This document shows positions 2,052-26,043 of a DNA stretch of 64,000 bases, one piece after another. Location of the stretch: the NCBI RefSeq assembly GCF_002797935.1, contig NZ_PGER01000001.1, positions 2,852,001 to 2,916,000 on the forward strand. Direction: 5' to 3'. Every line of letters starts with the position of its first letter. Within the stretch, counting starts at the first letter, position 1. The notes beneath the pieces are model-generated. The model saw only the letters and a program-made list of their open reading frames with translations. It had not been told where the DNA came from and ran no database searches. Position numbers and translations under genes: made by a program. Source of the DNA: Flavobacterium sp. 1 (lineage in GTDB: Bacteria; Bacteroidota; Bacteroidia; Flavobacteriales; Flavobacteriaceae).

Positions 2052-5000
2052 CTATTTTCTGTTAATATATAAGTAACCTGCTTTTTCATGCATATTTGAA
2101 GCGCTATCTTTATATCTAAAAATATAATAGTAAGTCCCAACTGGTAATTCATCGAACTTATTTACTGTCACTCGTCCTTCAGATACTCCTCTAAAAGCAC
2201 GATCATCATTATTATAGTTTTCTCGCTCGAATACTAAGACTCCCCAGCGATTATAAACCTCCACGGTATTATCTGGATAACATTCCAGTCCTCGGATATA
2301 AAATATATCATTATGTCCATCTCCATTTGGAGACAACGCATTAAACACCTCAATAGAACAACCTGGAATTATCACAATAGTTGGTTTGTCACTAAGATTA
2401 TTTCCATCATCTGATAAATCTTTTACAAGAATACCGGTCGGACTTATTCCTGATACAATTGCCTGATTTGATACACTTCCAAAATTAATATCAGCTTGAG
2501 TAATTGCATATGAAGCGACATAAGCCGTACTATTTGTCATTCCTGTTCCTAAAACAGCTATAGAACTTCCCTTCATCACTAATCCCGGTAAACTAGTGTC
2601 TGTAACAGTGACATTAGTCAATGGTTCATTTCCTGTATTAGTTACTGTAAAATTATAAGTAATGGTTTCCCCTGCATTTGCATAACCATCTCCATTTTCA
2701 TCATTGAAGTGGGCTGTTTTCACTAAGCCGATACTAGGCCGCGCCACGAATACGGTTACTTTAGCTATACTACAATTTGAAGAAGGATTTGCTTTTTCAC
2801 AAATGCTATACGTTAAAGTATAAATCCCTTCTGGAGTGTTTGCTGGAACACTTACTGTTCCTGTAGCAATATCAATTAATGGAACTGATGCTCCTGGTGT
2901 TTTTGAAACTGCCGGTGTCACTACTTTTAAATCCACTAATCCGATAACTACTGGCTTACCATTCAAAATATCAAGATTCGTTGGACTGCTGGCTAACACG
3001 TTTCCTGCGTTTAGTGTTCCTGCTGTTCCGTTTCCGCCTGATATGATATCGTCTTTAGCTGTGATTGATGGTGCATCATCATTGTCTTGAATGATTCCTA
3101 TCGCTGTATCGCTGATATTGCCTACTGTTCCAGTAGTTGAAGCAATTTTTACAGTTAAATCCTCATTCAATTCATCTATCAAATCATCGGTTGTTTGCAC
3201 AGTTGCCGTAGCTTTAGTGCTTCCCGCCAAGAAAGTTACGGTTACTGGTGTAGCGGTATAATCTGAATTTCCTGCTGTTCCGTTTACAAAATTCAACGTA
3301 ACGGTAATGTTTGTAACCGATGGATTACTCAATTTTACAGGGAAACTCAATATTCCGCCTTCTGCAATTGTTGCATCATCTACTGTTACATCTGGTGCTG
3401 TTTCAATAGCTATTAAAACAGAATTTGAAAACACTGGATTACAAACACCATTTTGAACAACAGCTCTGAAATAAGTATTCACGGTAAGATTACCAATTGT
3501 ACTGCCCAACAAAGTAGTTGATGTAATCGAAATAGCTACAGGATTCATAAATCCAGCATCATTAGATTTTTGCCATTTTACAACAGAACCAAAATTACCG
3601 CTTAATAATAAATCTGCTGGAAAAGTACCTGAAGTAATAACTTGATTAGAGGATACTAAACCTCCTACCGGCGGCGGCGTGATCGTTACCGATACCGAAG
3701 CTCTCGAACTCTCGCAGCCGTTTACTGTCTGGCTTGCATAATAAGTTCCCGTAGCCAATGTCTCGATTCCTGCATATAAGGTTCCTGCTGTTGACGCTGA
3801 ATACCATTTGATCCCTGTTCCCGATGCTGAAAGGTCGCTTACTTTTTTGGTCTCAGCCGAGCAGAAAGTCTGTGTCGATGCCGTTGGAACTGCCGGGCTG
3901 GCCGTGATGGTTACCGATACCGAAGTTCTTGCGCTCTCACAGCCGTTCACTGTCTGGCTCGCAAAATAAGTTCCTGTTGCCAGCGCCTCAGTTCCTGCAT
4001 ATAAAGTTCCTGCTGTTACCGCAGAATACCATTTAACTGCCGTGCCTGTAGCTGACAGATCGCTTACTTTTTTAGCCTCTGACGAACAGTAGGTCTGCGC
4101 CGATGCCGTTGGGACAACTGGGGTTGTATTCACTGTGACAGCAACCGAAGTTCTCCCGCTCTCACAGCCGTTTACTGTCTGGCTGGCAAAATAAGTTCCT
4201 GTAGCCAGCGCCTCGGTGCCTGCATATAAGGTTCCCGCTGTTGACGCTGAATACCATTTGATCCCTGTTCCCGATGCCGAAAGGTCGCTTACTTTTTTGG
4301 CTTCCGAAGAGCAGTAGGTCTGTGCAGTTGCCGTTGGTGCTGACGGGCTGGCCGTGATGGTTACCGATACCGAAGTTCTCGCGCTCTCACAGCCGTTTAC
4401 CGTCTGGCTTGCATAATAAGTTCCTGTTGCCAGCGCCTCAGTGCCTGTATATAAAGTTCCTGCTGTTAACGCTGAATACCATTTGATCCCTGTTCCCGAT
4501 GCCGAAAGGTCGCTTACTTTTTTGGCTTCCGAAGAGCAGTAGGTCTGGGCTGTTGCCGTCGGGGCTGACGGGCTTGCCGTGATGGTTACCGATACCGAAG
4601 TTCTTGTACTCTCGCAGCCGTTTACCGTCTGGCTCGCATAATAAGTTCCCGTTGCCAGTGCCTCAGTGCCTGCATATAAGGTTCCCGCTGTTAACGCTGA
4701 ATACCATTTAACTGCCGTGCCTGTAGCTGACAGATCGCTTACTTTTTTGGCCTCCGAAGAGCAGAAAGTCTGAGCTAAAGCCGTTGGTGCTGACGGACTT
4801 GCCGTGATCGTTACCGCCGCCGAAGCTCTCCCGCTCTCACAGCCGTTTACCGTCTGGCTCGCATAATAAGTTCCTGTAGCCAGCGTCTCGGTTCCTGCAT
4901 ATAAGGTTCCTGCTGTTACCGCAGAATACCATTTAACTGCCGTGCCTGTAGCTGACAGATCGCTTACTTTTTTAGCCTCTGACGAACAGTAGGTCTGCGC

Positions 5001-8000
5001 CGATGCTGTTGGGACAACCGGTGTTGTATTCACTGTGACAGCAACCGAAGTTCTTGCGCTCTCACAGCCGTTTACCGTCTGGCTTGCATAATAGGTTCCC
5101 GTAGCCAGCGTCTCGGTTCCTGCATATAAGGTTCCTGCTGTTACCGCTGAATACCATTTAACTGCCGTGCCTGACGCTGACAGATCGCTTACTTTTTTGG
5201 CCTCCGAAGAGCAGAAAGTCTGAGCTAAAGCCGTTGGTGCTGACGGACTTGCCGTGATCGTTACCGCTACCGAAGCTCTCCCGCTCTCACAGCCGTTTAC
5301 CGTCTGGCTCGCATAATAAGTTCCTGTAGCCAGCGTCTCGGTTCCTGCATATAAGGTTCCTGCTGTTGCCGCAGAATACCATTTAACTGCCGTGCCTGTA
5401 GCTGACAGATCGCTTACTTTTTTAGCCTCTGACGAACAGTAGGTCTGCGCCGATGCTGTTGGGACAACCGGTGTTGTATTCACTGTGACAGCAACCGAAG
5501 TTCTCGAACTCTCACATCCGTTTACCGTCTGGCTCGCATAATAAGTTCCCGTAGCCAGCGTCTCGGTGCCTGCATATAAGGTTCCTGCTGTTAACGCTGA
5601 ATACCATTTAACTGCCGTGCCTGTAGCAGACAGATCACTTACTTTTTTAGCCTCTGACGAACAGTAGGTCTGTGCCGATGCTGTTGGTGCTGACGGGCTG
5701 GCCGTGATCGTTACCGCTGCCGAAGCTCTCGCGCTCTCACATCCGTTTACCGTCTGGCTCGCATAATAAGTTCCCGTAGCCAGCGCCTCAGTGCCTGCAT
5801 ATAAGGTTCCTGCTGTTAACGCTGAATACCATTTAACTGCCGTGCCTGACACGGCTAGATCGCTTACTTTTTTAGCCTCCGAAGAACAGTAGGTCTGTGC
5901 CGATGCTGTTGGTGCTGACGGGCTGGCCGTGATCGTTACCGCTGCCGAAGCTCTCGCGCTCTCGCAGCCGTTTACCGTCTGGCTTGCATAATAAGTTCCT
6001 GTTGCCAGCGCCTCGGTGCCTGCATATAAGGTTCCTGCTGTTAACGCTGAATACCATTTGATGCCTGTTCCTGTAGCAGACAGATCGCTTACTTTTTTAG
6101 CCTCCGACGAACAGTAGGTCTGTGCCGATGCCGTTGGTGCTGACGGGCTTGCCGTGATCGTTACCGCCGCCGAAGCTCTCCCGCTCTCACAGCCGTTTAC
6201 CGTCTGGCTCGCATAATAAGTTCCCGTAGCCAGCGCCTCAGTGCCTGTATATAAAATTCCTGCTGTTAACGCTGAATACCATTTGATGCCTGTTCCTGTA
6301 GCAGACAGATCGCTTACTTTTTTAGCCTCCGACGAACAGTAGGTCTGTGCCGATGCCGTTGGTGCTGACGGGCTTGCCGTGATCGTTACCGCTGCCGAAG
6401 TTCTTGCGCTCTCACATCCGTTTACCGTCTGGCTCGCATAATAAGTTCCCGTTGCCAGCGCCTCAGTGCCTGCATATAAGGTTCCTGCTGTTAACGCTGA
6501 ATACCATTTAACTGCCGTGCCTGACACGGCTAGATCGCTTACTTTTTTAGCCTCCGCCGAGCAGAAAGTCTGAGCTGAAGCCGTTGGTGCTGACGGGCTT
6601 GCCGTGATCGTTACCGCTGCCGAAGCTCTCGAACTCTCGCAGCCGTTTACCGTCTGGCTTGCATAATAAGTTCCTGTTGCCAGCGCCTCAGTGCCTGTAT
6701 ATAAAATTCCTGCTGTTAACGCTGAATACCATTTGATGCCTGTTCCTGTAGCAGACAGATCGCTTACTTTTTTAGCCTCCGACGAACAGTAGGTCTGTGC
6801 CGATGCCGTTGGTGCTGACGGGCTTGCCGTGATCGTTACCGCTACCGAAGTTCTTGCGCTCTCACATCCGTTTACCGTCTGGCTCGCATAATAAGTTCCC
6901 GTTGCCAGCGCCTCAGTGCCTGCATATAAGGTTCCTGCTGTTAACGCTGAATACCATTTAACTGCCGTGCCTGACACGGCTAGATCGCTTACTTTTTTAG
7001 CCTCCGCCGAGCAGAAAGTCTGAGCTGAAGCCGTTGGTGCTGACGGGCTTGCCGTGATCGTTACCGCTGCCGAAGCTCTCGAACTCTCGCAGCCGTTTAC
7101 CGTCTGGCTTGCATAATAAGTTCCTGTTGCCAGCGCCTCGGTTCCTGCATATAAGGTTCCCGCTGTTAACGCTGAATACCATTTGATGCCTGTTCCTGTA
7201 GCACCTAAATCGCTTACTTTTTTAGCCTCCGACGAACAGTAGGTCTGTGCCGATGCCGTTGGTGCTGACGGGCTTGCCGTGATCGTTACCGATACCGAAG
7301 CTCTCGCGCTCTCACAGCCGTTTACCGTCTGGCTCGCATAATAGATGCCTGTTGCCAATGTCTCGGTGCCTGCATATAAGGTTCCCGCTGTTATCGCTGA
7401 ATACCATTTAACTGCCGTGCCTGTAGCTGACAGATCGCTTACTTTTTTTCCTTCCGAAGAGCAGAAAGTCTGAGCCGAAGCTGTCGGGGCTGACGGGCTT
7501 GCCGTGATCGTTACCGATACCGAAGCTCTCGCGCTCTCACAGCCGTTTGCCGTCTGGCTTGCATAATAAGTTCCTGTTGCCAGGGTCTCGGTGCCTGCAT
7601 ATAAAGTTCCCGCTGTGACAGCAGAATACCATTTAACTGCCGTGCCTGACGCTGACAGATCGCTTACTTTTTTAGCCTCCGAAGAACAGTAGGTCTGCGC
7701 CGATGCTGTCGGTGCTGAAGGGCTGGCCGTGATCGTTACCGATACCGAAGTTCTTGCGCTCTCACAGCCGTTCACTGTCTGGCTTGCATAATAAGTTCCT
7801 GTAGCCAGCGTCTCGGTGCCTGCATATAAGGTTCCCGCCGTTGCAGCAGAATACCATTTAACTGCCGTGCCTGACGCTGACAGATCGCTTACTTTTTTAG
7901 CCTCCGAAGAACAGTAGGTCTGCGCCGATGCTGTCGGTGCTGAAGGGCTGGCCGTGATCGTTACCGATACCGAAGTTCTTGCGCTCTCACAGCCGTTCAC

Positions 8001-11000
8001 TGTCTGGCTTGCATAATAAGTTCCTGTTGCCAGGGTCTCGGTGCCTGCATATAAGGTTCCCGCCGTTGCAGCAGAATACCATTTAACTGCCGTGCCTGCA
8101 GCCGACAGATCGCTTACTTTTTTTCCTTCTGAAGAGCAGAAAGTCTGCGCCGATGCTGTCGGTGCTGAAGGGCTGGCCGTGATCGTTACCGATACCGAAG
8201 TTCTTGCGCTCTCACAGCCGTTCACTGTCTGGCTTGCATAATAAGTTCCTGTTGCCAGCGTCTCGGTGCCTGCATATAAGGTTCCCGCTGTGACAGCAGA
8301 ATACCATTTGATGCCTGTTCCCGATGCCGCTAAATCGCTTACTTTTTTTCCTTCTGAAGAGCAGAAAGTTTGAGCCGAAGCTGTTGGCGACGTTGGTGAC
8401 GGAGTAATCGTTACCGATACCGAAGCTCTCGAACTCTCACAGCCGTTTACCGTCTGGCTCGCATAATAAGTTCCCGTTGCCAATGTCTCGGTGCCTGCAT
8501 ATAAGGTTCCCGCTGTGAGCGCTGAATACCATTTGATCCCTGTTCCTAATGCCGACAGGTCGCTTACTTTTTTAGCTTCCGAAGAGCAGAAAGTCGGAGC
8601 CGTTGGTGACGGAGCCGTTGGTGACGGAGTGATCGTTACCGATACCGAAGTTCTTGCGCTCTCACAGCCGTTTGCCGTTTGGCTTGCATAATAAGTTCCT
8701 GTAGCCAGCGTCTCGGTGCCTGCATATAAAGTTCCCGCTGTTACCGCAGAATACCATTTAACTGCCGTGCCTGACGCTGACAGATCGCTTACTTTTTTAG
8801 CCTCCGAAGAACAGTAGGTCTGCGCCGATGCTGTCGGTGCTGAAGGGCTGGCCGTGATCGTTACCGATACCGAAGCTCTCGAACTCTCACAGCCGTTTGC
8901 CGTTTGGCTTGCAAAATAAGTTCCTGTAGCCAGGGTCTCGGTGCCTGCATATAAAGTTCCCGCTGTGACAGCAGAATACCATTTGATCCCTGTTCCCGAT
9001 GCCGACAGGTCGCTTACTTTTTTAGCCTCCGACGAACAGTAGGTCTGTGCCGATGCTGTTGGGACAACTGGAGTTGTATTCACTGTGACAGCTACCGAAG
9101 TTCTTGCGCTCTCACAGCCGTTCACTGTCTGGCTTGCATAATAAGTTCCTGTAGCCAGGGTCTCGGTGCCTGCATATAAAGTTCCCGCTGTGACAGCAGA
9201 ATACCATTTAACTGCCGTGCCTGACGCTGACAGATCGCTTACTTTTTTAGCCTCCGACGAGCAGTAGGTCTGCGCCGATGCTGTTGGGACAACTGGAGTT
9301 GTATTCACTGTGACAGCTACCGAAGTTCTTGCGCTCTCACAGCCGTTCACTGTCTGGCTTGCAAAATAAGTTCCTGTAGCCAGGGTCTCGGTGCCTGCAT
9401 ATAAAGTTCCCGCTGTTACCGCAGAATACCATTTAACTGCCGTGCCTGACGCTGACAGATCGCTTACTTTTTTAGCCTCCGACGAGCAGTAGGTCTGCGC
9501 CGATGCTGTCGGTGCTGAAGGGCTTGCCGTGATCGTTACCGATACCGAAGCTCTCGAACTCTCACAGCCGTTTGCCGTTTGGCTTGCAAAATAAGTTCCT
9601 GTTGCCAGCGTCTCGGTGCCTGCATATAAAGTTCCCGCTGTGACAGCAGAATACCATTTAACTGCCGTGCCTGACGCTGACAGATCGCTTACTTTTTTAG
9701 CCTCCGAAGAACAGTAGGTCTGCGCCGATGCTGTCGGTGCTGAAGGGCTTGCCGTGATCGTTACCGATACCGAAGTTCTTGCGCTCTCACAGCCGTTCAC
9801 TGTCTGGCTTGCAAAATAAGTTCCTGTAGCCAGCGTCTCGGTGCCTGCATATAAAGTTCCCGCTGTGACAGCAGAATACCATTTAACTGCCGTGCCTGAC
9901 GCTGACAGATCGCTTACTTTTTTAGCCTCCGACGAGCAGTAGGTCTGCGCCGATGCTGTCGGTGCTGAAGGGCTGGCCGTGATCGTTACCGATACCGAAG
10001 TTCTTGCGCTCTCACAGCCGTTCACTGTCTGGCTTGCAAAATAAGTTCCTGTAGCCAGCGTCTCGGTGCCTGCATATAAAGTTCCCGCTGTTACCGCAGA
10101 ATACCATTTAACTGCCGTGCCTGACGCTGACAGATCGCTTACTTTTTTAGCCTCCGACGAGCAGTAGGTCTGCGCCGATGCTGTCGGTGCTGAAGGGCTG
10201 GCCGTGATCGTTACCGATACCGAAGTTCTTGCGCTCTCACAGCCGTTCACTGTCTGGCTTGCATAATAAGTTCCTGTAGCCAGCGTCTCGGTGCCTGCAT
10301 ATAAAGTTCCCGCTGTGACAGCAGAATACCATTTAACTGCCGTGCCTGACGCTGACAGGTCGCTTACTTTTTTAGCCTCCGACGAGCAGTAGGTCTGCGC
10401 CGATGCTGTTGGAACTGACGGGCTGGCCGTGATCGTTACCGATACCGAAGTTCTTGCGCTCTCACAGCCGTTTGCCGTTTGGCTTGCATAATAAGTTCCT
10501 GTTGCCAGGGTCTCGGTGCCTGCATATAAAGTTCCCGCTGTGACAGCAGAATACCATTTGATCCCTGCTCCCGATGCCGCTAAATCATTTACTTTTTTAG
10601 CCTCCGACGAACAGTAGGTCTGTGCCGATGCTGTTGGGACAACTGGAGTTGTATTCACTGTGACAGCTACCGAAGTTCTTGCGCTCTCACAGCCGTTCAC
10701 TGTCTGGCTTGCATAATAAGTTCCTGTAGCCAGGGTCTCGGTGCCTGCATATAAAGTTCCCGCTGTGACAGCAGAATACCATTTAACTGCCGTGCCTGAC
10801 GCTGACAGATCGCTTACTTTTTTAGCCTCCGACGAGCAGTAGGTCTGCGCCGATGCTGTTGGGACAACTGGAGTTGTATTCACTGTGACAGCTACCGAAG
10901 TTCTTGCGCTCTCACAGCCGTTCACTGTCTGGCTTGCAAAATAAGTTCCTGTAGCCAGGGTCTCGGTGCCTGCATATAAAGTTCCCGCTGTTACCGCAGA

Positions 11001-14000
11001 ATACCATTTAACTGCCGTGCCTGACGCTGACAGATCGCTTACTTTTTTAGCCTCCGACGAGCAGTAGGTCTGCGCCGATGCTGTCGGTGCTGAAGGGCTT
11101 GCCGTGATCGTTACCGATACCGAAGCTCTCGAACTCTCACAGCCGTTTGCCGTTTGGCTTGCAAAATAAGTTCCTGTTGCCAGGGTCTCGGTGCCTGCAT
11201 ATAAAGTTCCCGCTGTGACAGCAGAATACCATTTAACTGCCGTGCCTGACGCTGACAGATCGCTTACTTTTTTAGCCTCCGAAGAACAGTAGGTCTGCGC
11301 CGATGCTGTCGGTGCTGAAGGGCTTGCCGTGATCGTTACCGATACCGAAGTTCTTGCGCTCTCACAGCCGTTCACTGTCTGGCTTGCAAAATAAGTTCCT
11401 GTAGCCAGCGTCTCGGTGCCTGCATATAAAGTTCCCGCTGTTACCGCAGAATACCATTTAACTGCCGTGCCTGACGCTGACAGATCGCTTACTTTTTTAG
11501 CCTCCGACGAGCAGTAGGTCTGCGCCGATGCTGTCGGTGCTGAAGGGCTGGCCGTGATCGTTACCGATACCGAAGTTCTTGCGCTCTCACAGCCGTTCAC
11601 TGTCTGGCTTGCATAATAAGTTCCTGTAGCCAGGGTCTCAGTTCCTGCATATAAAGTTCCCGCTGTGACAGCAGAATACCATTTAACTGCCGTGCCTGAC
11701 GCTGACAGGTCGCTTACTTTTTTAGCCTCCGACGAGCAGTAGGTCTGCGCCGATGCTGTTGGAACTGACGGGCTGGCCGTGATCGTTACCGATACCGAAG
11801 TTCTTGCGCTCTCACAGCCGTTCACTGTCTGGCTTGCATAATAAGTTCCTGTTGCCAGGGTCTCGGTGCCTGCATATAAGGTTCCCGCCGTTGCAGCAGA
11901 ATACCATTTAACTGCCGTGCCTGCAGCCGACAGATCGCTTACTTTTTTTCCTTCTGAAGAGCAGAAAGTCTGCGCCGATGCTGTCGGTGCTGAAGGGCTG
12001 GCCGTGATCGTTACCGATACCGAAGTTCTTGCGCTCTCACAGCCGTTCACTGTCTGGCTTGCATAATAAGTTCCTGTTGCCAGCGTCTCGGTGCCTGCAT
12101 ATAAGGTTCCCGCTGTGACAGCAGAATACCATTTGATGCCTGTTCCCGATGCCGCTAAATCGCTTACTTTTTTTCCTTCTGAAGAGCAGAAAGTTTGAGC
12201 CGAAGCTGTTGGCGACGTTGGTGACGGAGTAATCGTTACCGATACCGAAGCTCTCGAACTCTCACAGCCGTTTACCGTCTGGCTCGCATAATAAGTTCCC
12301 GTTGCCAATGTCTCGGTGCCTGCATATAAGGTTCCCGCTGTGAGCGCTGAATACCATTTGATCCCTGTTCCTAATGCCGACAGGTCGCTTACTTTTTTAG
12401 CTTCCGAAGAGCAGAAAGTCGGAGCCGTTGGTGACGGAGCCGTTGGTGACGGAGTGATCGTTACCGATACCGAAGTTCTTGCGCTCTCACAGCCGTTTGC
12501 CGTTTGGCTTGCATAATAAGTTCCTGTAGCCAGCGTCTCGGTGCCTGCATATAAGGTTCCCGCTGTTACCGCAGAATACCATTTAACTGCCGTGCCTGAC
12601 GCTGACAGATCGCTTACTTTTTTAGCCTCCGAAGAACAGTAGGTCTGCGCCGATGCTGTCGGTGCTGAAGGGCTGGCCGTGATCGTTACCGATACCGAAG
12701 CTCTCGAACTCTCACAGCCGTTTGCCGTTTGGCTTGCAAAATAAGTTCCTGTAGCCAGGGTCTCGGTGCCTGCATATAAAGTTCCCGCTGTGACAGCAGA
12801 ATACCATTTGATCCCTGTTCCCGATGCCGACAGGTCGCTTACTTTTTTAGCCTCCGACGAACAGTAGGTCTGTGCCGATGCTGTTGGGACAACTGGAGTT
12901 GTATTCACTGTGACAGCTACCGAAGTTCTTGCGCTCTCACAGCCGTTCACTGTCTGGCTTGCATAATAAGTTCCTGTAGCCAGGGTCTCGGTGCCTGCAT
13001 ATAAAGTTCCCGCTGTGACAGCAGAATACCATTTAACTGCCGTGCCTGACGCTGACAGATCGCTTACTTTTTTAGCCTCCGACGAGCAGTAGGTCTGCGC
13101 CGATGCTGTTGGGACAACTGGAGTTGTATTCACTGTGACAGCTACCGAAGTTCTTGCGCTCTCACAGCCGTTCACTGTCTGGCTTGCAAAATAAGTTCCT
13201 GTAGCCAGGGTCTCGGTGCCTGCATATAAAGTTCCCGCTGTTACCGCAGAATACCATTTAACTGCCGTGCCTGACGCTGACAGATCGCTTACTTTTTTAG
13301 CCTCCGACGAGCAGTAGGTCTGCGCCGATGCTGTCGGTGCTGAAGGGCTTGCCGTGATCGTTACCGATACCGAAGCTCTCGAACTCTCACAGCCGTTTGC
13401 CGTTTGGCTTGCAAAATAAGTTCCTGTTGCCAGCGTCTCGGTGCCTGCATATAAAGTTCCCGCTGTGACAGCAGAATACCATTTAACTGCCGTGCCTGAC
13501 GCTGACAGATCGCTTACTTTTTTAGCCTCCGAAGAACAGTAGGTCTGCGCCGATGCTGTCGGTGCTGAAGGGCTTGCCGTGATCGTTACCGATACCGAAG
13601 TTCTTGCGCTCTCACAGCCGTTCACTGTCTGGCTTGCAAAATAAGTTCCTGTAGCCAGCGTCTCGGTGCCTGCATATAAAGTTCCCGCTGTTACCGCAGA
13701 ATACCATTTAACTGCCGTGCCTGACGCTGACAGATCGCTTACTTTTTTAGCCTCCGAAGAACAGTAGGTCTGCGCCGATGCTGTCGGTGCTGAAGGGCTG
13801 GCCGTGATCGTTACCGATACCGAAGTTCTTGCGCTCTCACAGCCGTTCACTGTCTGGCTCGCAAAATAAGTTCCTGTTGCCAGCGCCTCAGTGCCTGCAT
13901 ATAAAGTTCCTGCTGTGAACGCAGAATACCATTTAACTGCCGTGCCTGTAGCAGACAGATCACTTACTTTTTTAGCCTCTGACGAACAGTAGGTCTGCGC

Positions 14001-17000: not shown

Positions 17001-20000
17001 CGTCTGGCTGGCATAATAAGTTCCCGTTGCCAGCGCCTCAGTGCCTGCATATAAGGTTCCTGCTGTTAACGCTGAATACCATTTAACTGCCGTGCCTGAC
17101 ACGGCTAGATCGCTTACTTTTTTAGCCTCCGCCGAGCAGAAAGTCTGAGCTGAAGCCGTTGGTGCTGACGGGCTTGCCGTGATCGTTACCGCTGCCGAAG
17201 CTCTCGAACTCTCGCAGCCGTTTACTGTCTGGCTTGCATAATAAGTTCCCGTAGCCAATGTCTCGATTCCTGCATATAAGGTTCCTGCTGTTGACGCTGA
17301 ATACCATTTGATCCCTGTTCCCGATGCTGAAAGGTCGCTTACTTTTTTGGTCTCAGCCGAGCAGAAAGTCTGTGTCGATGCCGTTGGAACTGCCGGGCTG
17401 GCCGTGATGGTTACCGATACCGAAGTTCTTGCGCTCTCACAGCCGTTCACTGTCTGGCTCGCAAAATAAGTTCCTGTTGCCAGCGCCTCAGTGCCTGCAT
17501 ATAAAGTTCCTGCTGTGAACGCAGAATACCATTTAACTGCCGTGCCTGTAGCAGACAGATCACTTACTTTTTTAGCCTCTGACGAACAGTAGGTCTGCGC
17601 AGTTGCTGTTGGGACAACCGGGGTTGTATTCACTGTGACAGCAACCGAAGTTCTCGCGCTCTCACAGCCGTTTACCGTCTGGCTCGCATAATAAGTTCCT
17701 GTTGCCAGCGCCTCGGTTCCTGCATATAAAGTTCCCGCTGTTACCGCAGAATACCATTTAACTGCCGTGCCTGTAGCTGACAGATCGCTTACTTTTTTAG
17801 CCTCTGACGAACAGAATACCTGCGCCGATGCCGTTGGTGCTGACGGGCTAGCCGTGATCGTTACCGATACCGAAGTTCTCGCGCTCTCACAGCCGTTCAC
17901 TGTCTGGCTCGCATAATAGATGCCTGTTGCCAGGGTCTCAGTTCCTGCATATAAAGTTCCTGCTGTTACCGCAGAATACCATTTAACTGCCGTGCCTGTA
18001 GCTGACAGATCGCTTACTTTTTTAGCCTCTGACGAACAGTAGGTCTGCGCCGATGCCGTTGGGACAACTGGGGTTGTATTCACTGTGACAGCAACCGAAG
18101 TTCTCCCGCTCTCACAGCCGTTTACTGTCTGGCTGGCAAAATAAGTTCCTGTAGCCAGCGCCTCGGTGCCTGCATATAAGGTTCCCGCTGTTGACGCTGA
18201 ATACCATTTAACTGCCGTGCCTGTAGCTGACAGATCGCTTACTTTTTTGGCCTCCGAAGAGCAGAAAGTCTGAGCTAAAGCCGTTGGTGCTGACGGACTT
18301 GCCGTGATCGTTACCGCCGCCGAAGCTCTCCCGCTCTCACAGCCGTTTACCGTCTGGCTCGCATAATAAGTTCCTGTAGCCAGCGTCTCGGTTCCTGCAT
18401 ATAAGGTTCCTGCTGTTACCGCAGAATACCATTTAACTGCCGTGCCTGTAGCTGACAGATCGCTTACTTTTTTAGCCTCTGACGAACAGTAGGTCTGCGC
18501 CGATGCTGTTGGGACAACCGGTGTTGTATTCACTGTGACAGCAACCGAAGTTCTTGCGCTCTCGCAGCCGTTTACCGTCTGGCTTGCATAATAGGTTCCC
18601 GTAGCCAGCGTCTCGGTTCCTGCATATAAGGTTCCTGCTGTTAACGCTGAATACCATTTAACTGCCGTGCCTGACGCTGACAGATCGCTTACTTTTTTAG
18701 CCTCCGAAGAACAGTAGGTCTGTGCCGATGCTGTTGGTGCTGACGGGCTGGCCGTGATCGTTACCGCTGCCGAAGCTCTCGAACTCTCGCAGCCGTTTAC
18801 CGTCTGGCTTGCATAATAAGTTCCTGTTGCCAGCGCCTCAGTGCCTGTATATAAAATTCCTGCTGTTAACGCTGAATACCATTTGATGCCTGTTCCTGTA
18901 GCAGACAGATCGCTTACTTTTTTAGCCTCCGACGAACAGTAGGTCTGTGCCGATGCCGTTGGTGCTGACGGGCTTGCCGTGATCGTTACCGATACCGAAG
19001 CTCTCGAACTCTCGCAGCCGTTTACCGTCTGGCTTGCATAATAAGTTCCTGTTGCCAGCGCCTCAGTGCCTGTATATAAAATTCCTGCTGTTAACGCTGA
19101 ATACCATTTGATGCCTGTTCCTGTAGCACCTAAATCGCTTACTTTTTTAGCCTCCGACGAACAGTAGGTCTGTGCCGATGCCGTTGGTGCTGACGGGGTT
19201 GTATTCACTGTGACAGCAACCGAAGCTCTCGAACTCTCGCAGCCGTTTACCGTCTGGCTCGCATAATAAGTTCCCGTAGCCAGCGTCTCGGTGCCTGCAT
19301 ATAAGGTTCCTGCTGTTAACGCTGAATACCATTTAACTGCCGTGCCTGACGCTGACAGATCGCTTACTTTTTTAGCCTCCGAAGAACAGTAGGTCTGTGC
19401 CGATGCTGTTGGTGCTGACGGGCTGGCCGTGATCGTTACCGCTGCCGAAGCTCTCGCGCTCTCACATCCGTTTACCGTCTGGCTCGCATAATAAGTTCCC
19501 GTTGCCAGCGCCTCAGTGCCTGCATATAAGGTTCCTGCTGTTAACGCTGAATACCATTTAACTGCCGTGCCTGACACGGCTAGATCGCTTACTTTTTTGG
19601 CCTCCGAAGAGCAGAAAGTCTGAGCTGAAGCCGTTGGTGCTGACGGGCTTGCCGTGATCGTTACCGATACCGAAGCTCTCGAACTCTCGCAGCCGTTTAC
19701 CGTCTGGCTTGCATAATAAGTTCCTGTTGCCAGCGCCTCGGTGCCTGCATATAAGGTTCCTGCTGTTAACGCTGAATACCATTTGATGCCTGTTCCTGTA
19801 GCAGACAGATCGCTTACTTTTTTAGCCTCCGACGAACAGTAGGTCTGTGCCGATGCCGTTGGTGCTGACGGGCTTGCCGTGATCGTTACCGCCGCCGAAG
19901 CTCTCCCGCTCTCACAGCCGTTTACCGTCTGGCTCGCATAATAAGTTCCCGTTGCCAGCGCCTCAGTGCCTGCATATAAGGTTCCTGCTGTTAACGCTGA

Positions 20001-23000
20001 ATACCATTTAACTGCCGTGCCTGACACGGCTAGATCGCTTACTTTTTTAGCCTCCGCCGAGCAGAAAGTCTGAGCTGAAGCCGTTGGTGCTGACGGGCTT
20101 GCCGTGATCGTTACCGATACCGAAGCTCTCGAACTCTCGCAGCCGTTTACCGTCTGGCTTGCATAATAAGTTCCTGTTGCCAGCGCCTCGGTTCCTGCAT
20201 ATAAGGTTCCCGCTGTTAACGCTGAATACCATTTGATGCCTGTTCCTGTAGCACCTAAATCGCTTACTTTTTTGGCCTCCGAAGAGCAGAAAGTCTGAGC
20301 TAAAGCCGTTGGTGCTGACGGACTTGCCGTGATCGTTACCGCTACCGAAGCTCTCCCGCTCTCACAGCCGTTTACCGTCTGGCTCGCATAATAAGTTCCT
20401 GTAGCCAGCGTCTCGGTGCCTGCATATAAGGTTCCCGCTGTTAACGCTGAATACCATTTAACTGCCGTGCCTGTAGCAGACAGATCGCTTACTTTTTTAG
20501 CCTCCGACGAACAGTAGGTCTGTGCCGATGCCGTTGGTGCTGACGGGCTTGCCGTGATCGTTACCGCCGCCGAAGCTCTCCCGCTCTCACAGCCGTTTAC
20601 CGTCTGGCTCGCATAATAAGTTCCCGTAGCCAGCGCCTCAGTGCCTGTATATAAAATTCCTGCTGTTAACGCTGAATACCATTTAACTGCCGTGCCTGAC
20701 GCTGACAGATCGCTTACTTTTTTAGCCTCCGACGAACAGTAGGTCTGTGCCGATGCTGTTGGTGCTGACGGGCTGGCCGTGATCGTTACCGCTGCCGAAG
20801 TTCTTGCGCTCTCACATCCGTTTACCGTCTGGCTCGCATAATAAGTTCCTGTAGCCAATGTCTCGGTGCCTGCATATAAGGTTCCTGCTGTTGCCGCTGA
20901 ATACCATTTAACTGCCGTGCCTGACACGGCTAGATCGCTTACTTTTTTAGCCTCCGCCGAGCAGAAAGTCTGAGCTGAAGCCGTTGGTGCTGACGGGCTT
21001 GCCGTGATCGTTACCGATACCGAAGCTCTCGAACTCTCGCAGCCGTTTACCGTCTGGCTTGCATAATAAGTTCCTGTTGCCAGCGCCTCAGTGCCTGCAT
21101 ATAAGGTTCCCGCTGTTAACGCTGAATACCATTTAACTGCCGTGCCTGTAGCTGACAGATCGCTTACTTTTTTGGCCTCCGAAGAGCAGTAGGTCTGTGC
21201 CGATGCTGTTGGTGCTGACGGGCTGGCCGTGATCGTTACCGCTGCCGAAGCTCTCGAACTCTCGCAGCCGTTTACCGTCTGGCTCGCATAATAAGTTCCT
21301 GTAGCCAGCGTCTCGGTTCCTGCATATAAGGTTCCTGCTGTTACCGCAGAATACCATTTAACTGCCGTGCCTGTAGCTGACAGATCGCTTACTTTTTTAG
21401 CCTCTGACGAACAGTAGGTCTGCGCCGATGCTGTTGGGACAACCGGTGTTGTATTCACTGTGACAGCAACCGAAGTTCTTGCGCTCTCGCAGCCGTTTAC
21501 CGTCTGGCTTGCATAATAGGTTCCCGTAGCCAGCGTCTCGGTTCCTGCATATAAGGTTCCTGCTGTTACCGCTGAATACCATTTAACTGCCGTGCCTGAC
21601 GCTGACAGATCGCTTACTTTTTTGGCCTCCGAAGAGCAGAAAGTCTGAGCTAAAGCCGTTGGTGCTGACGGGGTTGTATTCACTGTGACAGCAACCGAAG
21701 CTCTCGAACTCTCACATCCGTTTACCGTCTGGCTCGCATAATAAGTTCCCGTAGCCAGCGTCTCGGTGCCTGCATATAAGGTTCCTGCTGTTAACGCTGA
21801 ATACCATTTGATCCCTGTTCCCGATGCTGAAAGGTCGCTTACTTTTTTGGCCTCAGCCGAGCAGAAAGTCTGTGCCGATGCTGTTGGTGTAGCAGCATTG
21901 ACCGTTACGGCAACCGAAGTTCTTGCGCTCTCACAGCCGTTTACCGTCTGGCTTGCAAAATAAGTTCCTGTAGCCAGTGTCTCGGTTCCGGTATATAAAG
22001 TTCCCGATGTTACCGCAGAATACCATTTGATTGCTGTTCCTGCGCTAACCGTTAAGTCGCTTACTTTTTTACCATCTGCCAAACAGAATGTTTGAGCAGT
22101 TGCTGTTGGTACTGTTGGTGTAGCAGTTACAGCAACAGTTACACTTTCGGTAAATTCACACCCACTTCCAGTAGTAATTTTTAAAGAATATATACCTGCA
22201 TTAACAACTTGAGCATTTGGAATGATTGGAGATTGTAAAGACGACGTAAATCCATTTGGACCAGTCCAAGCATATGTAGATGCTCCATTAACACCACTTA
22301 ACGACACTGTACTACCTTGACAAACTGGAGTTGTTACTAATGAAATAACTGACTGCGTGACATCAACCCAGTGATCCTCAACCTCACCATCAATTGCAAG
22401 TCCAGTTGAAGTAAGTGACAAATCAGTAGATAATCTTATACGAGCATAAAAATTTGTTCCATTATTTAAACCCTTAATCGATGATAATGGAACTACTACA
22501 TTACCATTAGTTCCTATAGGCACAGTTGAAGTTGCTAACTCATTGGTGTCAAATACACCATTCCTATTTGCATCAATCCATACATACAATTTAGCAGCAA
22601 CGGTAGTTGTATTTTTAACATTAATTGTTGCTGAACAAGTTGACCAAGTAAAATTCATACTAGCATCTTCATCATCACTACCACCAAGATCATCACCATT
22701 TGGGGCTGTTCCTATAGCGGCATTATAACCTGCACCCTCTGTATCTACATCAGTACCAATTAATAATAACGGGTCTACTAATGTAGCTCTGTCCGTATCT
22801 AAAACATTGGTTGTTGTGCTTAAATCTTTATTTCCGGCCGCAAAATTTCCACCTGTAAAGGCTGAATTAACAATATGGTAGGCTGAACCATAAGAAACTG
22901 GTGCGTCAGAAAAATCTAATTCTTCAAAAATACCAATTGCAACACTCTGTCCGCCACCGCTAGCGGCTAATTCTACATCAATATAAGGTACATCTTCCGC

Positions 23001-23681
23001 AAATAAAAGTGCATCACCTTTACTATCACCACTGCCAGGATTAGTTGCTTTAATAGTTCTTCCCGAATTAGATACAATTAATCTAGTAATCATATTTGTC
23101 CAAGTATCATTTTTAATAAACTTGTCCAAATAACGTAACACTGGTGAAGCAATCGGCACTGACAATTGATAATACTCAGTAGGACCTGACATACTTTCGG
23201 CACCCGCAATAGCTAATCCAGCGGCATTAATTATAGCACCTGATGGCAATGTTGCAGTAACTGTAATTCTAAAATTCACCTTGTTACCAGATCCTGCTCC
23301 TCCAATTATCTTATTTGAGAGACCAATCATTTTTGTACCATTAGAACTAAAACCACCATAACCAAATGGCATATTGTTTCCACCAAAACTATCAATATAT
23401 GCACTTGAAAAAGTACCCGGTGTAATTGTTTGAACAATATTAGATATAGTAGCCCTATATACTATTCCAGAAGGGCTTGTAAAAGTTCTTACAATACCAT
23501 TTGTAATAAGATCCTTTTGCAATGAATCAGAATTTAAATCCCAATTAATCCAAAAAATTTTTTCTTTATACAAACCTGTTCCTGTCGTGGCCCTTGAAGC
23601 CGATTGCGCTAATCCCGAGGTCTGTATTATAAATAACGTAAGAAACAATAAGTACTTAGTAGGGAAGTATCTTTTTCTCAT
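2052..23681 (-). CDS. Giant Ig-like-repeat surface adhesin, T9SS type B
   Basis: A 7209-residue secreted protein. A signal peptide (about 1-26, ending SGLAQ) leads into a CshA-like N-terminal region (about 30-280) and a GEVED-type domain with the motif DGEVEDHW (about 340-440). One diverged Ig/PKD-like domain (about 440-515) follows. Then come about 82 units of about 75 residues, each with Cys in QT(Y/F)CSSE and Cys in NGCES, resembling the CHU_C-associated Ig-like family. After the array there is a Calx-beta-like domain (about 6765-6860), a conserved-repeat (DUF11-like) domain with acidic NDENGDGY (about 6980-7100) and a gliding-motility-associated C-terminal domain (SPNGDGHNDIF ... VYNRWG ... 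GTYYYIFRYKD). That C-terminus is a T9SS type B signal, so the product should be exported and displayed on the surface. Paired Cys residues suggest one disulfide per Ig unit. SprB-like motility or attachment is plausible but not shown. The reading frame is unbroken over 21.6 kb, which argues for selection. Confidence 0.92.
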   Translation of the reverse strand: MRKRYFPTKYLLFLTLFIIQTSGLAQSASRATTGTGLYKEKIFWINWDLNSDSLQKDLITNGIVRTFTSPSGIVYRATISNIVQTITPGTFSSAYIDSFGGNNMPFGYGGFSSNGTKMIGLSNKIIGGAGSGNKVNFRITVTATLPSGAIINAAGLAIAGAESMSGPTEYYQLSVPIASPVLRYLDKFIKNDTWTNMITRLIVSNSGRTIKATNPGSGDSKGDALLFAEDVPYIDVELAASGGGQSVAIGIFEELDFSDAPVSYGSAYHIVNSAFTGGNFAAGNKDLSTTTNVLDTDRATLVDPLLLIGTDVDTEGAGYNAAIGTAPNGDDLGGSDDEDASMNFTWSTCSATINVKNTTTVAAKLYVWIDANRNGVFDTNELATSTVPIGTNGNVVVPLSSIKGLNNGTNFYARIRLSTDLSLTSTGLAIDGEVEDHWVDVTQSVISLVTTPVCQGSTVSLSGVNGASTYAWTGPNGFTSSLQSPIIPNAQVVNAGIYSLKITTGSGCEFTESVTVAVTATPTVPTATAQTFCLADGKKVSDLTVSAGTAIKWYSAVTSGTLYTGTETLATGTYFASQTVNGCESARTSVAVTVNAATPTASAQTFCSAEAKKVSDLSASGTGIKWYSALTAGTLYAGTETLATGTYYASQTVNGCESSRASVAVTVNTTPSAPTALAQTFCSSEAKKVSDLSASGTAVKWYSAVTAGTLYAGTETLATGTYYASQTVNGCESARTSVAVTVNTTPVVPTASAQTYCSSEAKKVSDLSATGTAVKWYSAVTAGTLYAGTETLATGTYYASQTVNGCESSRASAAVTITASPSAPTASAQTYCSSEAKKVSDLSATGTAVKWYSALTAGTLYAGTEALATGTYYASQTVNGCESSRASVSVTITASPSAPTASAQTFCSAEAKKVSDLAVSGTAVKWYSAATAGTLYAGTETLATGTYYASQTVNGCESARTSAAVTITASPSAPTASAQTYCSSEAKKVSDLSASGTAVKWYSALTAGILYTGTEALATGTYYASQTVNGCESGRASAAVTITASPSAPTASAQTYCSSEAKKVSDLSATGTAVKWYSALTAGTLYAGTETLATGTYYASQTVNGCESGRASVAVTITASPSAPTALAQTFCSSEAKKVSDLGATGTGIKWYSALTAGTLYAGTEALATGTYYASQTVNGCESSRASVSVTITASPSAPTASAQTFCSAEAKKVSDLAVSGTAVKWYSALTAGTLYAGTEALATGTYYASQTVNGCESGRASAAVTITASPSAPTASAQTYCSSEAKKVSDLSATGTGIKWYSALTAGTLYAGTEALATGTYYASQTVNGCESSRASVSVTITASPSAPTASAQTFCSSEAKKVSDLAVSGTAVKWYSALTAGTLYAGTEALATGTYYASQTVNGCESARASAAVTITASPSAPTASAQTYCSSEAKKVSDLSASGTAVKWYSALTAGTLYAGTETLATGTYYASQTVNGCESSRASVAVTVNTTPSAPTASAQTYCSSEAKKVSDLGATGTGIKWYSALTAGILYTGTEALATGTYYASQTVNGCESSRASVSVTITASPSAPTASAQTYCSSEAKKVSDLSATGTGIKWYSALTAGILYTGTEALATGTYYASQTVNGCESSRASAAVTITASPSAPTASAQTYCSSEAKKVSDLSASGTAVKWYSALTAGTLYAGTETLATGTYYASQTVNGCESARTSVAVTVNTTPVVPTASAQTYCSSEAKKVSDLSATGTAVKWYSAVTAGTLYAGTETLATGTYYASQTVNGCESGRASAAVTITASPSAPTALAQTFCSSEAKKVSDLSATGTAVKWYSASTAGTLYAGTEALATGTYFASQTVNGCESGRTSVAVTVNTTPVVPTASAQTYCSSEAKKVSDLSATGTAVKWYSAVTAGTLYAGTETLATGIYYASQTVNGCESARTSVSVTITASPSAPTASAQVFCSSEAKKVSDLSATGTAVKWYSAVTAGTLYAGTEALATGTYYASQTVNGCESARTSVAVTVNTTPVVPTATAQTYCSSEAKKVSDLSATGTAVKWYSAFTAGTLYAGTEALATGTYFASQTVNGCESARTSVSVTITASPAVPTASTQTFCSAETKKVSDLSASGTGIKWYSASTAGTLYAGIETLATGTYYASQTVNGCESSRASAAVTITASPSAPTASAQTFCSAEAKKVSDLAVSGTAVKWYSALTAGTLYAGTEALATGTYYASQTVNGCESARASAAVTITASPSAPTASAQIYCSSEAKKVSDLSASGTAVKWYSALTAGTLYTGTETLATGTYYASQTVNGCESSRASVAVTVNTTPSAPTASAQTYCSSEAKKVSDLSATGTAVKWYSAATAGTLYTGTETLATGTYYASQTVNGCESARASAAVTITASPSAPTASAQTYCSSEAKKVSDLGATGTGIKWYSALTAGTLYAGTEALATGTYYASQTVNGCESSRASAAVTITASPSAPTASAQTFCSAEAKKVSDLAVSGTAVKWYSALTAGTLYAGTEALATGTYYASQTVNGCESARTSVAVTITASPSAPTASAQTYCSSEAKKVSDLSATGTGIKWYSALTAGTLYAGTETLATGTYYASQTVNGCESSRASVAVTVNTTPSAPTASAQTYCSSEAKKVSDLGATGTGIKWYSALTAGILYTGTEALATGTYYASQTVNGCESSRASVSVTITASPSAPTASAQTYCSSEAKKVSDLSATGTGIKWYSALTAGILYTGTEALATGTYYASQTVNGCESSRASAAVTITASPSAPTASAQTYCSSEAKKVSDLSASGTAVKWYSALTAGTLYAGTETLATGTYYASQTVNGCESARTSVAVTVNTTPVVPTASAQTYCSSEAKKVSDLSATGTAVKWYSAVTAGTLYAGTETLATGTYYASQTVNGCESGRASAAVTITASPSAPTALAQTFCSSEAKKVSDLSATGTAVKWYSASTAGTLYAGTEALATGTYFASQTVNGCESGRTSVAVTVNTTPVVPTASAQTYCSSEAKKVSDLSATGTAVKWYSAVTAGTLYAGTETLATGIYYASQTVNGCESARTSVSVTITASPSAPTASAQVFCSSEAKKVSDLSATGTAVKWYSAVTAGTLYAGTEALATGTYYASQTVNGCESARTSVAVTVNTTPVVPTATAQTYCSSEAKKVSDLSATGTAVKWYSAVTAGTLYAGTEALATGTYYASQTVNGCESARTSVAVTVNTTPVVPTATAQTYCSSEAKKVSDLSATGTAVKWYSAFTAGTLYAGTEALATGTYFASQTVNGCESARTSVSVTITASPSAPTASAQTYCSSEAKKVSDLSASGTAVKWYSAVTAGTLYAGTETLATGTYFASQTVNGCESARTSVSVTITASPSAPTASAQTYCSSEAKKVSDLSASGTAVKWYSAVTAGTLYAGTETLATGTYFASQTANGCESSRASVSVTITASPSAPTASAQTYCSSEAKKVSDLSASGTAVKWYSAVTAGTLYAGTETLATGTYFASQTVNGCESARTSVAVTVNTTPVVPTASAQTYCSSEAKKVSDLSASGTAVKWYSAVTAGTLYAGTETLATGTYYASQTVNGCESARTSVAVTVNTTPVVPTASAQTYCSSEAKKVSDLSASGTGIKWYSAVTAGTLYAGTETLATGTYFASQTANGCESSRASVSVTITASPSAPTASAQTYCSSEAKKVSDLSASGTAVKWYSAVTAGTLYAGTETLATGTYYASQTANGCESARTSVSVTITPSPTAPSPTAPTFCSSEAKKVSDLSALGTGIKWYSALTAGTLYAGTETLATGTYYASQTVNGCESSRASVSVTITPSPTSPTASAQTFCSSEGKKVSDLAASGTGIKWYSAVTAGTLYAGTETLATGTYYASQTVNGCESARTSVSVTITASPSAPTASAQTFCSSEGKKVSDLSAAGTAVKWYSAATAGTLYAGTETLATGTYYASQTVNGCESARTSVSVTITASPSVPTASAQTYCSSEAKKVSDLSASGTAVKWYSAVTAGTLYAGTETLATGTYYASQTVNGCESARTSVSVTITASPSAPTASAQTYCSSEAKKVSDLSASGTAVKWYSAVTAGTLYAGTETLATGTYFASQTVNGCESARTSVSVTITASPSAPTASAQTYCSSEAKKVSDLSASGTAVKWYSAVTAGTLYAGTETLATGTYFASQTANGCESSRASVSVTITASPSAPTASAQTYCSSEAKKVSDLSASGTAVKWYSAVTAGTLYAGTETLATGTYFASQTVNGCESARTSVAVTVNTTPVVPTASAQTYCSSEAKKVSDLSASGTAVKWYSAVTAGTLYAGTETLATGTYYASQTVNGCESARTSVAVTVNTTPVVPTASAQTYCSSEAKKVNDLAASGAGIKWYSAVTAGTLYAGTETLATGTYYASQTANGCESARTSVSVTITASPSVPTASAQTYCSSEAKKVSDLSASGTAVKWYSAVTAGTLYAGTETLATGTYYASQTVNGCESARTSVSVTITASPSAPTASAQTYCSSEAKKVSDLSASGTAVKWYSAVTAGTLYAGTETLATGTYFASQTVNGCESARTSVSVTITASPSAPTASAQTYCSSEAKKVSDLSASGTAVKWYSAVTAGTLYAGTETLATGTYFASQTVNGCESARTSVSVTITASPSAPTASAQTYCSSEAKKVSDLSASGTAVKWYSAVTAGTLYAGTETLATGTYFASQTANGCESSRASVSVTITASPSAPTASAQTYCSSEAKKVSDLSASGTAVKWYSAVTAGTLYAGTETLATGTYFASQTVNGCESARTSVAVTVNTTPVVPTASAQTYCSSEAKKVSDLSASGTAVKWYSAVTAGTLYAGTETLATGTYYASQTVNGCESARTSVAVTVNTTPVVPTASAQTYCSSEAKKVSDLSASGTGIKWYSAVTAGTLYAGTETLATGTYFASQTANGCESSRASVSVTITASPSAPTASAQTYCSSEAKKVSDLSASGTAVKWYSAVTAGTLYAGTETLATGTYYASQTANGCESARTSVSVTITPSPTAPSPTAPTFCSSEAKKVSDLSALGTGIKWYSALTAGTLYAGTETLATGTYYASQTVNGCESSRASVSVTITPSPTSPTASAQTFCSSEGKKVSDLAASGTGIKWYSAVTAGTLYAGTETLATGTYYASQTVNGCESARTSVSVTITASPSAPTASAQTFCSSEGKKVSDLSAAGTAVKWYSAATAGTLYAGTETLATGTYYASQTVNGCESARTSVSVTITASPSAPTASAQTYCSSEAKKVSDLSASGTAVKWYSAATAGTLYAGTETLATGTYYASQTVNGCESARTSVSVTITASPSAPTASAQTYCSSEAKKVSDLSASGTAVKWYSAVTAGTLYAGTETLATGTYYASQTANGCESARASVSVTITASPSAPTASAQTFCSSEGKKVSDLSATGTAVKWYSAITAGTLYAGTETLATGIYYASQTVNGCESARASVSVTITASPSAPTASAQTYCSSEAKKVSDLGATGTGIKWYSALTAGTLYAGTEALATGTYYASQTVNGCESSRASAAVTITASPSAPTASAQTFCSAEAKKVSDLAVSGTAVKWYSALTAGTLYAGTEALATGTYYASQTVNGCESARTSVAVTITASPSAPTASAQTYCSSEAKKVSDLSATGTGIKWYSALTAGILYTGTEALATGTYYASQTVNGCESSRASAAVTITASPSAPTASAQTFCSAEAKKVSDLAVSGTAVKWYSALTAGTLYAGTEALATGTYYASQTVNGCESARTSAAVTITASPSAPTASAQTYCSSEAKKVSDLSATGTGIKWYSALTAGILYTGTEALATGTYYASQTVNGCESGRASAAVTITASPSAPTASAQTYCSSEAKKVSDLSATGTGIKWYSALTAGTLYAGTEALATGTYYASQTVNGCESARASAAVTITASPSAPTASAQTYCSSEAKKVSDLAVSGTAVKWYSALTAGTLYAGTEALATGTYYASQTVNGCESARASAAVTITASPSAPTASAQTYCSSEAKKVSDLSATGTAVKWYSALTAGTLYAGTETLATGTYYASQTVNGCESSRTSVAVTVNTTPVVPTASAQTYCSSEAKKVSDLSATGTAVKWYSAATAGTLYAGTETLATGTYYASQTVNGCESGRASVAVTITASPSAPTALAQTFCSSEAKKVSDLSASGTAVKWYSAVTAGTLYAGTETLATGTYYASQTVNGCESARTSVAVTVNTTPVVPTASAQTYCSSEAKKVSDLSATGTAVKWYSAVTAGTLYAGTETLATGTYYASQTVNGCESGRASAAVTITASPSAPTALAQTFCSSEAKKVSDLSATGTAVKWYSALTAGTLYAGTEALATGTYYASQTVNGCESTRTSVSVTITASPSAPTATAQTYCSSEAKKVSDLSASGTGIKWYSALTAGTLYTGTEALATGTYYASQTVNGCESARTSVSVTITASPSAPTATAQTYCSSEAKKVSDLSASGTGIKWYSASTAGTLYAGTEALATGTYFASQTVNGCESGRTSVAVTVNTTPVVPTASAQTYCSSEAKKVSDLSATGTAVKWYSAVTAGTLYAGTEALATGTYFASQTVNGCESARTSVSVTITASPAVPTASTQTFCSAETKKVSDLSASGTGIKWYSASTAGTLYAGIETLATGTYYASQTVNGCESSRASVSVTITPPPVGGLVSSNQVITSGTFPADLLLSGNFGSVVKWQKSNDAGFMNPVAISITSTTLLGSTIGNLTVNTYFRAVVQNGVCNPVFSNSVLIAIETAPDVTVDDATIAEGGILSFPVKLSNPSVTNITVTLNFVNGTAGNSDYTATPVTVTFLAGSTKATATVQTTDDLIDELNEDLTVKIASTTGTVGNISDTAIGIIQDNDDAPSITAKDDIISGGNGTAGTLNAGNVLASSPTNLDILNGKPVVIGLVDLKVVTPAVSKTPGASVPLIDIATGTVSVPANTPEGIYTLTYSICEKANPSSNCSIAKVTVFVARPSIGLVKTAHFNDENGDGYANAGETITYNFTVTNTGNEPLTNVTVTDTSLPGLVMKGSSIAVLGTGMTNSTAYVASYAITQADINFGSVSNQAIVSGISPTGILVKDLSDDGNNLSDKPTIVIIPGCSIEVFNALSPNGDGHNDIFYIRGLECYPDNTVEVYNRWGVLVFERENYNNDDRAFRGVSEGRVTVNKFDELPVGTYYYIFRYKDSASNMHEKAGYLYINRK
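7966..10033. repeat. Segmental duplication copy A1 (offset 3825 bp)
   Basis: This roughly 2.07-kb stretch recurs almost base for base 3825 bp (exactly 17 units) further on, at about 11791-13858. Rare unit variants that mark both copies include the GAAGCTGTTGGCGACGTTGG junction near 8376 and 12201, and the unusual linker near 8600 and 12425. Copies part at about 7960/11785 and 10034/13859. Confidence 0.85.
11791..13858. repeat. Segmental duplication copy A2 (offset 3825 bp)
   Basis: Second copy of the block at about 7966-10033. Scattered single-base differences separate the two (for instance AAAGTTCCC against AAGGTTCCC near 8728/12553), so the duplication is recent but not a simple assembly echo. 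Confidence 0.85.
13811..15959. repeat. Segmental duplication copy B1
   Basis: Matches about 17411-19334. From 13811 to about 14170 the offset is 3600 bp (16 units). After one extra 225-bp unit in this copy the offset becomes 3375 bp (15 units) and holds until about 15959. So a block was copied and one unit was later gained here or lost in the partner. Confidence 0.8.
17411..19334. repeat. Segmental duplication copy B2
   Basis: Partner of the block at about 13811-15959 but shorter by one 225-bp unit. Immediately on its low-coordinate side, about 17241-17410, the sequence instead matches the C-terminal edge of the array at about 3741-3910, 13500 bp (60 units) away. Copying has therefore also moved units between distant array positions. 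Confidence 0.8.
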
Positions 23682-23729
23682 AAATTAATCTTTTTGATTC
23701 ATTTAGCTGTTACACCAATTCAATAATTT

Positions 23730-26041: not shown

Positions 26042-26043
26042 CT

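Follow-up and report, generated by a model that had tools for sequence, protein, structure and literature searches.

What does a single bacterial gene gain from repeating one small domain dozens of times, and why do its repeats differ so sharply in base composition from the remainder of the same gene? Both questions are raised by a locus of Flavobacterium sp. 1 (assembly GCF_002797935.1, contig NZ_PGER01000001.1), which we analyzed in a window of 64,000 nucleotides (positions 2,852,001 to 2,916,000 of the forward strand; coordinates below are those of the window). A first-pass annotation made from the sequence alone had described a giant surface adhesin there. We consider it quite probable that this gene encodes a type B cargo of the type IX secretion system (T9SS), an SprF-paired fibrillar adhesin working like a Periscope Protein. 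For the raised GC content of its repeat array, recombination is the leading candidate cause.

A single open frame carries 82 immunoglobulin-like units

The adhesin gene occupies 2052..23681 on the minus strand as one open reading frame of 7209 amino acids with an ATG start and no internal stop, in agreement with the unbroken 21.6-kb frame described previously. Its array of 82 Ig_7 units (3666..22112, minus strand; 225 bp each, the first 222 bp) was delimited by anchor motifs, Tandem Repeats Finder (TRF) and Pfam searches of four units. The KWYSA anchor occurs 82 times, with a spacing of 75 residues in 80 of 81 intervals, and TRF placed the array at 3678-22042 with a period of 225, 81.6 copies and 87% matches. 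The array makes up 6149 of the 7209 codons (85%), and cysteines are found at unit positions 10 and 59 in all 81 full-length units, unit 1 likewise containing two. The unit number, unit length, share of the protein and two cysteines per unit given by the first-pass annotation were thus all borne out, but its term "near-identical" was too strong: mean pairwise identity was 0.854 for DNA (81 full-length units) and 0.866 for protein over all pairs (adjacent units 0.77-1.00, mean 0.88), and the 82 units comprised 55 distinct protein and 66 distinct DNA sequences, making them similar only. Neighboring domains in large multidomain proteins are usually less than 50% identical, according to the available text of PMC8201768.

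Structure prediction, which had been proposed as a check, was run on three units and gave a confident fold, with a predicted local distance difference test score (pLDDT) of 95.4 and a predicted template modeling score of 0.78. The best PDB neighbors of the predicted unit fold were Ig fragments of GhpA (profile E 5.7e-90). Furthermore, the array contained long blocks with exact copies elsewhere in it, all on the minus strand: 1385 bp at 17950..19334 (copy at 14575-15959, 15-unit shift), 1136 bp at 12556..13691 (copy at 8731-9866, 17-unit shift) and 785 bp at 11770..12554 (copy at 7945-8729, 17-unit shift). These blocks point to the duplication of many units at once. The genome consists of one contig of 5,351,669 bases, so that no contig end truncates the array.

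The array is flanked by a candidate binding tip and a T9SS sorting tail

We scanned the tip, the tail and four array units for domains, the other units being close copies. All features of the gene lie on the minus strand. Before the array we found a hydrophobic, signal-peptide-like stretch judged by eye (residues 1-26; 23604..23681), a CshA_NR2 domain (residues 41-252; 22926..23561; E 3.8e-20, 73.4 bits against a cut-off of 24), a GEVED domain (residues 365-439; 22365..22589; E 1.1e-10) and an Ig_2-like domain (residues 446-518; 22128..22346) that, at 23.9 bits, scored under its family cut-off of 27. Behind the array followed a Calx-beta domain (3129..3356; 33.3 bits, cut-off 27), DUF7507 (2418..2738; 76.8 bits) and a CHU_C / T9SS type B sorting domain (2064..2354; CHU_C 89 bits, TIGR04131 36.3 bits with a cut-off of 35). 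Directly downstream, at 1029..2000 on the minus strand, lies the gene of a PorP/SprF family outer-membrane partner (TIGR03519, 272 bits), and the T9SS core gene SprA is present in the genome (2703.7 bits). The tail, the partner gene and SprA together support the predicted assignment as T9SS type B cargo made by the first-pass annotation. That annotation had noted neither the PorP/SprF partner nor the mosaic structure and GC anomaly of the array described below.

The CshA_NR2 match marks a candidate binding-type domain at the tip, consistent with the CshA-like N-terminus suggested before. A profile of the tip matched 5l2d (E 0.0012) and CshB, 6yzg (E 0.0084), in the PDB. The structure model of the tip weighs against this picture, being weak (pLDDT 66, 8 sequences), and the tip assignment therefore rests on sequence matches. 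A fold search with this weak model returned Ig-type and other beta proteins, with CshA NR2 absent among the best 50 matches listed.

In the mechanism that we propose, the CshA_NR2/GEVED tip would be kept away from the outer membrane by 82 Ig_7 domains in a chain. An Ig unit contributes 3.5-4.5 nm of length, and with such a gain per unit the rod would measure about 0.3 micrometre; surface location, adhesion and rod shape are what we infer for the protein. The length of the array would be set by unequal crossing-over together with gene conversion.

Related tips are carried on stalks of other length and type

The stalk role is supported by two homologous genes. The first, P0002 (5306 aa, source JGI), has a tip and a tail of the same kind with 58 anchored units; its Calx-beta part is absent, as judged by eye. 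The second, in genome G177 of the same genus, has a tip 51% identical to the one here, followed by a Big_9 array, DUF7507, CHU_C and a PorP/SprF gene. The G177 array consists of a 321-bp unit in 42.0 + 17.8 copies with 97-98% matches, assigned to Big_9 by Pfam (L196 14277-20000; L163 1-13486), and its frame is broken within the array into open frames of 5578 and 3278 aa. Since G177 keeps the type of head and tail over a different stalk domain, it provides the strongest evidence for the stalk as a spacer, and argues that reach is kept and not stalk chemistry. SprF also lies downstream in L191, as it does in L196 of G177.

Of the two broader statements in the first-pass annotation, length variability is supported between homologues, with 82 units here and 58 in P0002, while the array is less unusual than was thought: 315 of 398 genomes of the genus contain a unit match at E <= 1e-8, and G177 has about 60 units of another domain type that are more homogeneous.

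The tip has a much narrower distribution, with a match at E <= 1e-25 in 6 of the 398 genomes, own genome included. Tip identity was 87% in Flavobacterium sp. Root420 (L049), 51% in CF136 (L050) and 50% in F. davisii (L051). When the tip was compared with 100 relatives, none of the matches listed, own gene aside, started before query residue 302, and these covered GEVED/Ig parts only. In Root420 the contig stops within the array and leaves 10-11 units or parts of units readable. In F. davisii (L051 9959-18720) and G277 (L191 6862-12330), the frame of the tip is cut short and the stalk array has an open frame of its own. For six Ig_7 arrays (L172, L173, L174, L177, L178, L179) the contig ends no more than about 2 kb away, and array lengths in draft genomes are therefore probably understated.

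Other readings of the adhesin

A mobile adhesin for gliding like SprB, whose role is described in the available part of PMC11205867, is an improbable alternative. It would share with the gene here the export system, the size class and the pairing with SprF, but the SprB repeat (PF13573) was unlisted for the tip, the tail and the four array units, and a tip confined to 6 genomes is unlike the expectation for a core part of the motility machinery. Very doubtful is an oligomeric fiber of the hook type that catches other cells, like GhpA of Aureispira, in place of a single-chain stalk. Outside the Ig domains no GhpA homology was found for the tip (by profile) or the tail (by single sequence), in searches of limited sensitivity, and VipB/TssC were unmatched in the genome, a narrow test that a divergent type VI secretion system could escape and in which E. 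coli alone among 14 control genomes gave a signal. Finally, that the unit number is an assembly artefact of a collapsed or expanded array is most improbable, since the exact 1.1-1.4 kb blocks and the several draft contigs of relatives stopping near such arrays are outweighed by a single-contig genome with one unbroken frame, the 66 distinct DNA units and the independent 58-unit homologue.

Array units are mosaics under purifying selection

Among the 65 distinct full-length units, mean dN (nonsynonymous divergence) was 0.072 and mean dS (synonymous divergence) 0.510, a ratio of 0.14, and the units are under purifying selection. Linkage between 60 biallelic sites decreased from an r2 of 0.169 under 25 nt to 0.015-0.049 beyond, with 0 of 500 position permutations as extreme, and site pairs showing all four combinations became more frequent with distance, their share increasing from 0.52 to 0.69-1.00. 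Related units are non-independent samples, and these dN/dS and linkage figures hence describe rather than prove. The units are short-patch, fine-scale mosaics, a structure that repeated conversion and unequal exchange would be expected to produce. We also compared the array with that of Root420, where identity at four-fold degenerate (4-fold) sites was 0.42 against 0.85 in the tip; we do not claim faster synonymous change of the array from this, because within a single array the units themselves are already different (0.67 and 0.58).

The array is GC-rich at synonymous sites

GC per kilobase was 0.51-0.54 in the array and about 0.25-0.38 in other stretches. At 4-fold sites it was 0.43 in the array (n=4031), compared to 0.16 (n=262) and 0.20 (n=268) at the two ends of the same gene. 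Ig_7-like domains in four other genes of the genome had a 4-fold GC of 0.17-0.30, three of the seven loci being without a domain at threshold. Similarly, the Root420 array had 0.45 and the Root420 tip region 0.21. The ribosomal-protein region, represented by 28 frames chosen by script, had a 4-fold GC of 0.098 (n=1998). The array thus prefers codons that such genes avoid, and translational selection was rejected as the cause of the gain.

We surveyed tandem arrays with a period of at least 90 nt and at least 3 copies. The 57 sources, of which six belonged to other families of the order, had been chosen by long frames and by similarity to Ig_7, the tip or Big_9; GC played no part in the choice. 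The survey gave 51 arrays, of which L191, L049 and L199 were dropped for short flanks; the remaining 48 included two elsewhere in this genome, and several shared a genome. It supersedes an earlier wide scan (a gain in 50 of 84 scored rows; rho of 0.33 with copies) that had mixed overlapping loci and high-GC hosts. GC was above the rest of the frame in 35 of the 48 arrays, and with one unit taken as the sample, 12 were higher and 2 lower at p < 0.01. Because the idea had arisen from the adhesin array, the tests were repeated without it: 34 of 47 arrays were higher, and the gain correlated with homogeneity (rho 0.51, p 2.5e-4) and with copy number (rho 0.34, p 0.02). With one array per locus, 25 of 30 were higher (Wilcoxon p 2.3e-4), and rho was 0.51 for homogeneity (p 0.004) and 0.34 for copies (p 0.07). 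With the adhesin array left out, the mean gain was -0.02 in the 14 arrays with less than 80% matches, 0.09 in 17 arrays at 80-90% and 0.13 in 16 arrays above 90%. Unrelated repeats also had a gain (array and flank 0.59/0.22 in G177, 0.48/0.13 in L051, 0.52/0.24 in L201), as had L166 (156 bp, 10.9 copies; 0.48 vs 0.18), which was left out of the codon-level comparison below. Five arrays of high-GC hosts, near 0.8 4-fold GC, had no gain. A 1026-bp repeat in L170 (3-3970; 3.8 copies, 77%) ran opposite to the trend, at 0.04 compared to 0.17 in the rest of its frame.

GC-biased gene conversion as a possible cause

Recombination between units may raise GC at the synonymous sites of the array. We favor GC-biased gene conversion because the gain is linked to homogeneity, the units are mosaics, unrelated repeat types are affected and the direction is wrong for translational selection; that it is the main cause is a view we hold with no firm confidence, at close to even balance. 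Such conversion, with recombination raising GC, has been proposed for bacteria in the available text of PMC4450053, whose main text does not contain "tandem", "Bacteroid" or "Flavobacter".

Several observations weigh against this cause. Homogeneous arrays without a gain exist, namely L210 (9 copies, 99%; 0.19/0.18), L202 (21 copies, 87%; 0.18/0.18) and L175 (0.11/0.15), and rule out that all homogeneous arrays are GC-rich; two of the 48 arrays were significantly lower in GC. Moreover, 11 of the top 12 arrays were usable at the codon level, and in 8 of these the increase at NCN codons (N, any base) was in G with hardly any in C, a pattern not predicted by plain GC-biased conversion. In the other top arrays, G177 rose in both G and C and two mainly in C. 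Within the adhesin array NCG and GGC rose, while NCC and GGG did not. Codon context and the gainless homogeneous arrays thus speak against a simple form of GC-biased conversion. L191, with 12 copies at 99% and a 4-fold GC of 0.13, has too little flank to score.

The gain could alternatively stem from a founder effect or import, in which a first unit that was GC-richer by source or chance was amplified; we regard this as rather unlikely, and it would leave the reading as an adhesin unchanged. Consistent with such an origin, many codon columns show no variation among the 81 full-length units, with codons shared by descent, and the Root420 array is GC-rich as well. However, the excess in the adhesin array still had a p of 5e-5 when a single unit of 49 sites was taken as the sample, the gain in G177, L051 and L201 concerns repeats unrelated to this one, and GC is lower (L173, L164, L172; 0.13-0.29) in units with about 80% protein identity from other genomes of the genus.

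To return to GC-biased conversion, we put forward, more tentatively still, that long homogeneous intragenic arrays in AT-rich Bacteroidota offer a direct view of the process in bacteria. If so, repeats that recombine with each other become richer in G and C at synonymous sites, the gene's own non-repeat ends serve as a built-in control, and the 82-unit gene would be a strong example. For the question whether recombination itself raises GC in bacteria, we offer a within-gene contrast: locus, transcript and host are common to the repeated and the non-repeated parts, which differ in how they recombine.

Genomic neighborhood

Directly upstream of the adhesin gene lies a response-regulator-like gene (24798..25454, minus strand), followed by a Crp-like (cNMP_binding) regulator gene (26266..26892, minus strand); homologues of both precede the tip gene of Root420 in the same order, the response-regulator-like gene in the same place. 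Three response-regulator-like paralogues, 83-91% identical, lie on both sides of the adhesin (95-763, 24798-25454, 27255-27923), the middle one having DN near its N-terminus where the other two have DD; Root420 has one such gene within the 13.8 kb compared. An Rfam search of 22000-29000 gave no match, and a promoter scan of 23500-24900 found 8 sites with 7.4 expected. Nearby, at 28511-61842, are polysaccharide genes, where eight scanned proteins gave a Reg_prop/Y_Y_Y regulator, GH8 and GH64 carrying ricin-type lectin and Por secretion tails, GH43, GH16, SusD, DUF2264 and DUF4861.

Comparison with known systems

Among the literature titles listed as matches, none concerned a T9SS periscope protein or a GC gain in intragenic bacterial repeats, which is no proof of absence, and the available portions of the literature on F. 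psychrophilum and F. columnare do not mention such a gene. SprB of Flavobacterium johnsoniae is, like the protein here, a giant T9SS surface adhesin, from which the unlisted SprB repeat separates it. CHU_C fibrillar-adhesin-like proteins of Bacteroidetes are already surveyed (134 proteins in the available text of PMC8286594, in which "T9SS" and "type IX" are absent); they likewise combine adhesive and stalk domains with a CHU_C end, and the protein here differs from them in its long array of a single domain type. The grappling hook protein GhpA of Aureispira sp. CCB-QB1 (PDB 9flp and seven more entries) is a giant with a long Ig-like array, the closest solved relative of the adhesin stalk. GhpA is a heptameric assembly, whereas the adhesin is known here from its sequence and a three-unit prediction.

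CshA of Streptococcus gordonii has the CshA_NR2 domain in common with the adhesin. CshA is anchored by sortase, in contrast to the T9SS here, and its stalk is built of CshA_repeat (PF19076), which was unlisted for the four array units, where Ig_7 was found instead. Judged by its domains, with a stalk that differs, the adhesin is not a CshA.

The Periscope Proteins (Sgo_0707, SasG, Rib, CshA) are described in PMC8201768 and PMC9704523, and, as far as the available text of these papers goes, both they and the adhesin have a terminal domain, a candidate binding-type one here, on tandem, highly similar folded domains. In both the unit number differs between homologues, the comparison of 82 with 58 here being one between homologues only. 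They differ in anchoring, which is by sortase or autotransporter in Periscope Proteins and would be by a T9SS type B sorting domain and SprF here, and in repeat number, where the papers mention one case with over 40 repeats and a range of 2-47 BIg repeats, against 82 units here. Words starting with "Bacteroid" do not occur in the main texts of the two papers, and the gene described here would extend the periscope idea to T9SS cargo.
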